A stretch of DNA of 64,000 nucleotides from Thermoactinomyces vulgaris (GTDB taxonomy: Bacteria > Bacillota > Bacilli > Thermoactinomycetales > Thermoactinomycetaceae). Where the stretch lies: the NCBI RefSeq assembly GCF_003688725.1, contig NZ_REFP01000010.1, positions 124,001 to 188,000 of the forward strand, given 5' to 3'. The stretch's first letter is position 1. Every line of letters begins with the position of its first letter. The notes under the pieces were generated by a model. The model saw only the letters and a list, made by a program, of their open reading frames with translations. It had not been told where the DNA came from and searched no databases. Position numbers and translations under genes: made by a program. Of the stretch, positions 1 to 50,719 are shown piece by piece.

Positions 1-281
1 GGTGGTTAAACGCACTTTCAGCCATTCAGGTTTCCGCTGCCGGGTTTTTGCTTTGTTATCGCTTGCCACTTGAATCCCTCCACAATCAAAATCGACACCA
101 AACCGCCCTTCCCAGCCTTGCAAAAAATTTCACAAAGTACAAGAGGGAACAGCCGGATCGTTTCCATTTTCACCATTGCAAAAAAATGTTTTTTCCACAA
201 GTGTTTTTATCATTTTCACTTAAAATGGCAAAATCGATGTTCCTTTATACTATAACGCAAAAAATCATTTTTGCATAATCA

Positions 282-48859: not shown

Positions 48860-49102
48860 AATGTTTACCTCCAAAGTTGAACCATTTTATTCCAACCGAA
48901 ACGGATGGATGATCGGAATCTTTTTTTTTAATTTTTTTTTCGTCTTTTCTGCTTTTTTAAACCTCCTTCTTTTTCTTCTTACTTTTATTTCCTTGTCCCG
49001 GCTGCTTTAGTAATGACAAATTTGAAAATCCCGCAAAAAACTTCCTTTTATATTTAAGAAGTTTAAAAAACACTCATTCCCATTTTTTTAAAAAAGGTGT
49101 AA

Positions 49103-49108
49103 TATAAT
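49103..49108 (+). promoter_or_regulatory. -10 box of the RRNPP regulator gene
   Basis: A perfect TATAAT lies 30 bases before the start codon. The -35 region is AT-rich but not canonical. The surrounding 48860-49137 stretch holds no gene. Confidence 0.4.
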
Positions 49109-49137
49109 AATAATTAACGGATTGTGAGGTGATCGGT

Positions 49138-50469
49138 TTGAAACAATTGGCCCTTCACGAAATCGGTGAAGTGATTCGCAAGGTTCGAAAAGACCGCGGT
49201 TTGAGATTGGAAGACCTTGCCGATGAAAACATTTCACCGGCGACGGTTTCCAACATCGAGCGTGGGGTCGCCCATGTGAGTCCTGAGAAAATTTCATATC
49301 TTCTGGAAAAATTGAATCTCCCCATGCGTAAATTACCAGAAATGCTCATGAAAGAGCAAGAAAAATTAAAAAAAGTTAAGTTTGAACTTCTCTCCATTGC
49401 CACATTGCGAAGAATCGGCCTGATCGATGAAGCATTGAAACGCCTGGATGCGCTTAATCTGGATGAAAACAACCCGTTCATCGCCCAAGCTTACTATTAC
49501 AAAGGCGAGTGCTACATGAGCAAGCAAAAGTGGAAACAGGCTGAGCGCACCTTGTATAATGCCCTTCGCATTTCTCAGCAAAACCCTTATAAAGAAAGCA
49601 ATATGGAAGCAGCCAGTTATCTTTTGCTCGGCTTGATCCGTTACAAACAAAACAATATCGAACAGGCCCTGGAAATGACAAACAACGGCATTGAAGCCTT
49701 TAAAGACTCAGGAGATAATCAGCACATCAAATATTTATTATACCGCAACAAAGGTGTTTACCTCCAGCGCATGGGACGAATCACCGAAGGGATGCGCCTG
49801 GTTCAGGATATATGGGATATGATCCCCCAAATCAACGATATCAGCACCCTGCTCAGCTTCTATTGGTTGCGCGCCGAATTTTCCCGCTTGTCCGGCTTGT
49901 TGGATGAAGCCATTGATTATGCGACAGAAGGCATCGAGATTTCGAGAAACAACAAGCAGTATGACAGCATGTGTGATTTATGGACGGTTCTCGGCAGTGT
50001 TTACACTGCAAAAAAAGAATGGGAAATGGCAGAAACTTCGTTCAAAATGGCTTTGAAACTGGAAGGAAAATTCCCGCCTGACCAGCGGCTGACCACGGTT
50101 TACACCCGCCTGGGCATCCTCTACATCAAACAAGGCCGCAACGACGAAGCCAGCCAGATGTTAAAAACGGCAATCCGGTTGGCTGAGAAGTTTAACGACG
50201 CTCCCCGCTTAAGCACCAGTCTTATTATTCTCGGTGATTTGTGCCTGATGTGCAACCAAAGGGATGAGGCAATATTAACTTATAAGAAAGCGCTTGAAAT
50301 ATCTCAAAAACATAAGTATCAGGATAAAGAATTCAAAATTTGGTTTAGTTTGGCACGCTGTTATGATGGACATGATGAAAAGGAATTTCAGAATTGCATG
50401 CGAAATATGTATAATGTAAAAAAAGGTTTTAATAGATGGGAGGTAGAGGATTATGAAAATAACATCTAA
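49138..50469 (+). CDS. RRNPP-type regulator: XRE helix-turn-helix plus tetratricopeptide repeats
   Basis: A 443-residue regulator. The N-terminal XRE domain (about residues 5-60) shows IGEVIRKVRKDRGLRLEDLADENISPATVSNIERG. The rest is made of TPR-like helical pairs, with repeated patterns such as AYYYKGECYMSKQKWKQAERTLYNALRI and TRLGILYIKQGRNDEASQMLKTAIRLAEK. This is the plan of PlcR, NprR, AimR and related RRNPP receptors, where TPRs bind a short re-imported peptide. TTG at 49138 follows GAGGTGAT. Its stop overlaps a secreted pro-peptide gene with four identical heptapeptides, the expected ligand. Confidence 0.9.
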   Translation: MKQLALHEIGEVIRKVRKDRGLRLEDLADENISPATVSNIERGVAHVSPEKISYLLEKLNLPMRKLPEMLMKEQEKLKKVKFELLSIATLRRIGLIDEALKRLDALNLDENNPFIAQAYYYKGECYMSKQKWKQAERTLYNALRISQQNPYKESNMEAASYLLLGLIRYKQNNIEQALEMTNNGIEAFKDSGDNQHIKYLLYRNKGVYLQRMGRITEGMRLVQDIWDMIPQINDISTLLSFYWLRAEFSRLSGLLDEAIDYATEGIEISRNNKQYDSMCDLWTVLGSVYTAKKEWEMAETSFKMALKLEGKFPPDQRLTTVYTRLGILYIKQGRNDEASQMLKTAIRLAEKFNDAPRLSTSLIILGDLCLMCNQRDEAILTYKKALEISQKHKYQDKEFKIWFSLARCYDGHDEKEFQNCMRNMYNVKKGFNRWEVEDYENNI

Positions 50470-50674
50470 ATTTATTGTCTCCGGGGTTGTGGCTGCTGCT
50501 GTGGGATTGACCGGATTTGCCTGCCCCACGGTTCATGCAGCTCAAAGTGAACCGGGCGGATTAATCGCTCCCTTCCAAAGCGAACCGGGTGGATTATCCA
50601 TCGAGGCGAATCCCTCCCAAAGCGAACCGGGCGGATTGGCAACTCTTTTTCAAAGCGAGCCAGGCGGACTTTAA
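50453..50674 (+). CDS. Secreted multi-copy signalling pro-peptide (4 x QSEPGGL)
   Basis: A 73-residue precursor. A signal peptide (about 1-29) has a cleavage site after VHA. The exported part contains QSEPGGL four times: residues 31-37, 42-48, 56-62 and 67-73, the last at the very C-terminus. Spacers are IAPF, SIEANPS and ATLF. The four DNA copies differ at several codon third positions but the peptide is identical. The gene overlaps the receptor gene by 17 bases and has GGGAGGT before its ATG. Mature signal is probably QSEPGGL or a trimmed form; the processing protease is unknown. Confidence 0.88.
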   Translation: MKITSKFIVSGVVAAAVGLTGFACPTVHAAQSEPGGLIAPFQSEPGGLSIEANPSQSEPGGLATLFQSEPGGL

Positions 50675-50694
50675 AAAGGAAGATTCTTTCATTG

Positions 50695-50719
50695 GATCCT
50701 CTTCAGAGGATCTTTTTTT
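50695..50719 (+). terminator. Terminator of the quorum-sensing cassette
   Basis: GATCCTC / GAGGATC with a four-base loop and a run of seven T. Confidence 0.88.

Follow-up and report, generated by a model that had tools for sequence, protein, structure and literature searches.

A candidate RRNPP-type receptor-peptide cassette with a repeated SEPGGL core in Thermoactinomyces vulgaris, and its relatives across the order

Introduction

PlcR-PapR systems pair a receptor that combines an XRE-type HTH with TPRs with a small precursor encoded next to it, and receptors of the NprR subfamily exert Spo0F-directed activity alongside transcription control. According to passages of PMC10075063, an RRNPP pair consists of a receptor of 250-500 aa whose TPRs bind the peptide and an adjacent propeptide gene of 10-100 aa; the propeptide is secreted by Sec, and the mature peptide binds the receptor. 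The same passages report on the RRNPP_detector survey, in which Thermoactinomycetaceae are among the carriers, four gene clusters of this family are inferred to be under an RRNPP pair and 21 new subfamilies are listed (PMC10075063). PlcR has five TPRs, as stated in an excerpt of PMC3601957. AimR and AloR have been placed in a clan with more degenerate TPRs, and a DPG motif occurs in the mature peptides of AimR and of RRNPP_detector subfamily 08 (Paenibacillaceae), again as given in excerpts (PMC12700828).

Precursors with several pheromone copies, which a preliminary description of the locus presented here had considered unusual, have been described before, for AimR, NprR, Rap and PlcR (PMC9765709, PMC11343458, in part). 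The excerpts describe atypically large NprR propeptides, 17/17 of which contain repeats, and up to six identical copies (PMC9765709), precursors with up to eight pheromone copies, and repeated Rap pheromone copies that are processed and active (PMC11343458). Among the papers listed by literature searches on RRNPP or quorum-sensing peptides in Thermoactinomyces, Thermoactinomycetaceae, Kroppenstedtia and Laceyella, none describes the receptor-peptide family reported below, and the string SEPGGL was not found in the literature searched.

Bacterial communication poses the open question of how receptors and signal peptides can evolve jointly and still recognize each other. Here, we describe a receptor gene and an overlapping small gene from Thermoactinomyces vulgaris, together with their counterparts throughout the order.

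Results

The DNA analysed, referred to as the window, is a stretch of 64,000 nucleotides from a 2.56-Mb genome that is assembled in 15 contigs. All features named in the following lie on its forward strand. The receptor gene (49138-50469) encodes 443 aa from a TTG at 49138, with an in-frame GTG at 49129, and contains an HTH DNA-binding domain at 49174-49332 (PF01381, residues 16-68 of the 446-aa ORF). Within the end of this gene, GGAGG forms the ribosome-binding site (50438-50448) ahead of a second ORF, the putative pheromone precursor gene (50453-50674; 73 aa, ATG start); GGAGGTAG precedes the precursor start in all eight close orthologs defined below. The precursor opens with the signal-peptide-like segment MKITSKFIVSGVVAAAVGLTGFACPTVHA (50453-50539), in which hydropathy and inspection reveal a basic start, a hydrophobic stretch (2.57 over 11 residues) and VHA-A, and reads MKITSKFIVSGVVAAAVGLTGFACPTVHA-A-QSEPGGL-IAPF-QSEPGGL-SIEANPS-QSEPGGL-ATLF-QSEPGGL. 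The four copies occupy 50543-50563, 50576-50596, 50618-50638 and 50651-50671, the last directly before the stop. ORF coordinates and sequence agree with the preliminary description in the XRE-TPR receptor, the secreted-type precursor ORF and their 17-base overlap, as well as in the VHA ahead of the first repeat and the fourfold QSEPGGL that ends at the exact C-terminus. As to the terminator that it had named, a pattern search did find a hairpin with a T-run at 50694-50713, between the precursor gene and dapH (Pfam DapH_N), which is not significant by itself, since the 64-kb stretch holds four such sites against 2.2 expected in shuffles.

The codons of the four copies differ as had been described (AGT/AGC, GAA/GAG, CCG/CCA, GGC/GGT and TTA/TTG/CTT). 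Six nucleotide sites vary, five of them third codon positions and one a synonymous first position, and the spacers IAPF, SIEANPS and ATLF are dissimilar to each other. When the same numbers of random changes were applied to the repeat consensus, all copies kept their peptide in 16 of 400,000 simulations, which supports the selection on the peptide that had been proposed. Among the repeats of other precursors, third positions make up four of the five variable sites in L009, where the fifth is synonymous, and all variable sites in L013 (3/3), L014 (2/2), L038 (6/6), L047 (1/1), L051 (5/5) and L066 (2/2); L068 has no variable sites, and L048 has two third positions among three sites together with one amino-acid change. 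As these copies were located by their exact peptide, except in L048, the identity of the peptides in the other repeated precursors is partly given by construction. The repeated unit of L038 is GNPGEY in four copies, and no precursor of the family was seen to have more copies than those of L047 and L048, with their six to seven SAFPGP-like units in tandem.

Receptor matches at E <= 0.001 are present in all 23 family genomes examined. Eight receptors with 71-100% identity form the set of close orthologs, i.e. the window's own (L001) and seven relatives (L008-L014; 71-88%); a scan of named genomes returned one named relative, Thermoactinomyces mirandus, whose receptor is 88% identical to that of the window. 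A precursor overlaps the receptor end in 8/8 close orthologs, the window counted. QSEPGGL occurs once in L008 and once in the T. mirandus record (L007). In the other relatives, the corresponding peptides are NSEPGGL in three copies (L009), SSQPGGV (L010), NSQPGGL (L011) and SSEPGGL (L012) in one copy each, and SQEPGWP in two copies followed by a five-residue tail (L013, L014). The core S-E/Q-P-G-G-L/V is thereby found in five of the seven relatives and SQEPGWP in the remaining two. That homologues keep a repeat (three copies in L009, two each in L013 and L014) bears out the earlier proposal as far as repetition is concerned; the heptapeptide as its unit has to be shortened to the hexapeptide core, because the preceding residue (Q, N or S) drifts. 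The single copy of L008 matches the window's fourth at 20 of 21 bases, so that internal copies were probably gained or lost.

When 42 genomes of the order were searched with the precursor protein, the query matched, apart from itself, its copies in G019 and G018 (E ~3e-5) and otherwise gave weak matches (best 0.0067), as it is too short; no family was found for it in Pfam, NCBIfam or PHROGs. The missing database family would suit an untranslated overlapping ORF, arisen by chance or left by decay, as would the 13 of 21 receptors of the orthologous group (see below) that lack it. Such a frame is exceedingly unlikely here, given that the overlapping start, the ribosome-binding site and the core recur in 8/8 close orthologs and that the copies in the window differ only synonymously, at the low chance frequency simulated above.

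At E <= 1e-100, the receptor has matches in 37 of the 42 order genomes, with up to 11 per genome. All 81 receptor places outside the family were taken, in a first lot of 40 and a held-out lot of 41. An ORF qualified as precursor-like by starting near the receptor end and by a hydrophobic N-terminus, with its C-terminus disregarded; as hydropathy was a selection criterion, the signal-like start of the distant precursors is not independent evidence. Such ORFs were present at 34 of the 40 places in lot one, where two were set aside by eye (L046, L070) and 32 accepted, and at 25 of the 41 in lot two, where four were set aside (L146, L160, L168, L175) and 21 accepted. Taken together, 53 of the 81 distant receptors are followed by an accepted ORF and 28 are not. 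Weak ORFs beside the family receptors L002, L018 and L035 were likewise set aside. All five set-aside ORFs of the first set are less hydrophobic than any of its 40 accepted ones, and none has Pro at position -4.

The C-termini of the accepted precursors share a core. The first set comprises 36 distinct C-terminal hexamers, of which 32 have Pro at -4 (background 12.6%; binomial 6e-25), two of the 32 being the L013/L014 tail of the SQEPGWP precursors (30/34 without them); including the five set-aside ORFs, the count is 32/41. The held-out lot two, with no ORF set aside, has Pro at -4 in 16/24 (binomial 1e-9). Together with Gly at -3 (21/36) and Ser at -6 (19/36) in the first set, these frequencies yield the core S-x-P-G-x-x. 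Repeated copies are found in 11 of the 61 accepted precursors, ten of them in the first set and the eleventh (L152) in lot two; L047 and L048 reach six or seven. A single genome may hold several cores, for example SEDPGMS, LDEPGH, SSVPSDG and SEPKGT in G030.

The window's genome contains five further XRE-TPR paralogs (L002-L006; 28-36% identity) with no accepted adjacent precursor; the receptor has six matches in this genome and 21 in the related genome G018. When 299 genomes sampled from the class were scanned with a 24-row receptor profile (E <= 1e-40), matches came from 27 of them, 27/27 in the window's order; in 20 genomes outside the order, six had matches at E <= 1e-6, all of them partial (best 1e-12). 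In these sequence searches, the receptor group was found only within the order to which the window belongs. L127 (about 871-2151), which comes from a Bacilli genome outside the order, is a Rap/NprR-like receptor with a small ORF behind it whose start resembles a signal peptide; the two are probably another RRNPP pair.

Co-variation between receptor and repeat had been put forward as a check of the pheromone reading. The 61 receptors with an accepted precursor were aligned, the peptides were anchored on their Pro (L013 and L014 without tail), and sufficiently variable receptor columns within residues 70-429 were scored against six peptide positions. In the discovery set, the first 40 pairs, residue 202 against the residue after Pro ranked first of 1656 pairs, with 29 Arg/Gly, one other/Gly, two Arg/other and eight other/other. 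The co-variation was replicated in the 21 held-out pairs (5/0/4/12 in the same order; Fisher p = 0.006). The 202 pair had first been seen in all 61 before the split, and the first 40 alone would select the same pair; the lead obtained by eye had been column 242, and the scan ranked 202 first. On the best tree, 12 path-disjoint pairs differ in the residue after Pro; of these, nine agree in the direction of their change at 202, none disagrees and three are unchanged at 202 (sign test 0.004); on well-supported branches only, four of seven pairs agree and none disagrees (p = 0.125). Among the 241 columns of the held-out test, column 352 came out slightly above 202, and the residue-202 rule is broken in seven of the 61 pairs (L011, L063, L074, L147, L152, L164 and L171). 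Two further associations, each mostly within one clade, connect Glu242 with Gly two before Pro (six of the seven Glu242 receptors) and Asp359 with peptides that are shortened by one or two residues and lack the third position after Pro (7/8).

Residue 202 adjoins Asn203 in helix 194-211, the fourth TPR of the structural model described below; the codons of Arg202-Asn203-Lys204 lie at 49744-49752 (numbering of the 442-aa translation from 49141). Asn171 and Asn203 are each present in all 61 accepted precursor-bearing receptors and in 38 of 55 receptors without precursor. The Asn common to RNPP receptors is Asn227 in RapF, according to an excerpt of PMC3601957; the N-x-G signature agrees with Asn203 as its counterpart, whereas the TPR register from structural alignment disagrees. 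We infer that the core may be seated in the TPR4 groove, with its Pro-Gly close to Arg202.

The pattern at residue 202 also bears on a different function of the small protein. It might be a secreted effector, bacteriocin-like or a repeat protein of the cell surface, whose gene is merely controlled by the receptor and whose repeats act outside the cell; short repeated motifs behind a signal-like start would fit this, and re-import of the peptide is a predicted step. Yet an effector leaves the co-variation of the residue after Pro with a groove residue across 61 pairs to be explained, as well as a C-terminal core that is kept down to a single copy (L008, L010, L011, L012) and a precursor that belongs to none of the families in the databases searched. 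We therefore regard an effector as very unlikely and retain the receptor-pheromone pair.

Not every receptor has a precursor next to it. In the orthologous group of 21, an accepted adjacent precursor is absent in 13 (L015-L027; 47-63% identity), among them L018, whose single weak ORF was set aside and which was counted as precursor-less. A receptor can accordingly persist without a precursor. Seventeen of the 21 members have dapH no more than 1.5 kb downstream, namely six of the eight with and 11 of the 13 without a precursor. In a tree of 75 receptors, the group is surrounded by receptors of other families, most of which have a precursor (SH-aLRT 90; quick search), a position suggesting that the precursor was lost more than once; the counts alone do not separate loss from gain. 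The precursor-less orthologs keep Asn171 in 8/13, Asn203 in 9/13 and Arg249 in 4/13 cases; for precursor-bearing receptors of the first set the numbers are 40/40, 40/40 and 38/40, and those of the held-out set keep Arg249 in 14/21 and Trp281 in 11/21. A tie between the loss of groove residues and the absence of the precursor was dropped, as the paired tree test was far from significant.

Upstream of the receptor gene, alignment of the seven closest ortholog upstream regions delineated a conserved block (49046-49116) with TTCCCA at 49077-49082 and TATAAT at 49103-49108. With near-duplicates, L050 and L061 excluded, the element TTCC[AC]A-14..20-TAnWWT, originally picked by eye, is present in 13 of 37 upstream regions of the family, compared to 0.47 in shuffles. 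In the held-out regions, it was counted in 4/21 with precursor (shuffles 0.18) and in 8/20 without (shuffles 0.125). Being at least as common before precursor-less receptors, the element is a feature of the family and no evidence for the pheromone. The first hexamer does not look like a TTGACA box, and the element may therefore serve as an operator or as the site of another sigma factor. When the window's genome was searched with the conserved block, no other site was convincing (the next best had E 0.085), and we consequently propose no regulon.

The receptor matches Pfam HTH_3 (1.7e-8) and many TPR families, the latter well above cut-off. In the AlphaFold2 model (window and L007; mean pLDDT 85.9, pTM 0.75), nine TPR helix pairs were counted by eye. 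The top structural match of the model is apo NprR (Z 27.6, rmsd 4.9, 347 residues), with which animal LGN TPR domains tie within 1 Z; NprR-NprX follows with Z 25.6, and Rap entries range from Z 22 to 26. At the level of sequence, NprR is absent among the best 60 of 101 PDB matches to the receptor (E up to 0.01) and among the best 60 of 156 PDB matches to the 24-row profile; the PDB profile search was swamped by generic TPR proteins and was abandoned as a filing aid. Two proteins encoded in Bacilli genomes that lie outside the order do reach NprR, at ~1e-19 over the TPR part. PlcR matches the receptor weakly (E 0.0016 over residues 6-249). No match to the receptor was obtained in 50,697 phage records at 1e-5, none was confirmed among 53 viral-contig stretches, and plasmid records gave three weak matches.

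Discussion

We consider it highly probable that the locus is an RRNPP-type cell-to-cell signalling cassette, in which a DNA-binding XRE-TPR receptor reads a secreted peptide with a SEPGGL core. The preliminary description had favoured such a receptor-pheromone pair, and the overlapping precursors in 8/8 close orthologs, the order-wide C-terminal core and the co-variation at residue 202 speak in its favour.

The steps that we infer for this cassette run from secretion, processing and uptake to binding and to the sign and targets of regulation. Based on the gene overlap and the terminator-like site, receptor and precursor would be made from one transcription unit. From the anatomy of the precursor and the work on Rap105 and Rap3T, as excerpted from PMC11343458, the precursor would be exported by Sec and cut at or near VHA-A, and extracellular proteases would free up to four SEPGGL-core peptides from each precursor, the four copies providing more peptide per precursor. 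The peptide could then be re-imported through an oligopeptide permease; four SBP_bac_5 (OppA-type) genes are present in the genome. Inside the cell, SEPGGL or QSEPGGL would bind the groove at TPR4, at Arg202-Asn203, and alter the DNA binding of the receptor, which may act on its own conserved promoter and on other targets, with 49046-49116 as the first candidate for autoregulation.

The same pair might serve as a self-signal, namely an intracellular timer of the growth stage, in which four copies set the dose and population sensing plays no part. The sequence fits this equally well as quorum sensing, and so do the overlap of receptor and precursor and the one terminator-like site behind them. 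The signal-like N-terminus, which counts for the window's precursor and for its close orthologs but not for the distant ones, argues against it, and we judge a self-signal unlikely. Returning to the secreted pheromone, the broader picture would be that of a private peptide language of the order. It would use one scaffold with up to 11 close paralogs per genome, many of them paired with a dialect of S-x-P-G-x-x of their own in one to six or seven copies. Its code would be partly legible at residue 202, Arg202 next to the invariant Asn203 going with Gly after Pro and other residues at 202 with residues that bear a side chain, and lineages that lose the signal would keep the receptor as a listener or plain regulator. 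In our estimate, this picture has about even chances of being right.

The order-wide S-x-P-G core, the recurrent changes in copy number, the losses and the residue-202 rule look new. With 61 natural receptor-peptide pairs on one scaffold and with one anchored core, the rewiring of specificity becomes directly testable. The pairs also include a residue that may govern specificity and has switched several times independently, precursors whose copy number changed again and again, and a signal gene that was probably lost repeatedly.

Compared to the described systems, the receptor, with 443 aa and TPR families recognized by Pfam, and the propeptide, with 73 aa, a gene overlap of 17 bases and an adjacent position in 7/7 other close orthologs, have the dimensions and arrangement of an RRNPP pair. 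The closest likeness is to NprR-NprX, with which the receptor shares an HTH together with nine TPRs and the adjoining precursor gene. The sequence similarity in the TPR part that marks the NprR subfamily was not found among the best 60 PDB matches of the receptor or of the profile. The model compares best with apo NprR, in a tie with LGN TPR domains, and the receptor is expected to work like NprR but is not filed as NprR. QSEPGGL had been thought to resemble no known peptide; it does share Ser-x-Pro with NprX (SKPDIVG) and Pro-Gly with the DPG motif reported for AimR-type peptides (PMC12700828), but the D-x-x-G that follows Ser-x-Pro in NprX is absent here.

Rap-Phr pairs (including Phr105 and Phr3T) resemble the locus in the TPR-groove receptor and the adjoining precursor; in contrast, Rap proteins carry a three-helix bundle in place of the HTH that is found here, and the peptides are unrelated. 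AimR-AimP and subfamily 08 have Pro-Gly in the mature peptide in common with the window, whereas the nine TPRs of AimR are degenerate and those of the window's receptor are recognized by Pfam. The nine helix pairs of the receptor also set it apart from the five TPRs of PlcR, and the PapR peptide is not known to be related to that of the window. The 21 new subfamilies of RRNPP_detector may include the window's receptor group, as far as the excerpts of PMC10075063 indicate. We place the group in the RRNPP superfamily as a lineage-specific set.
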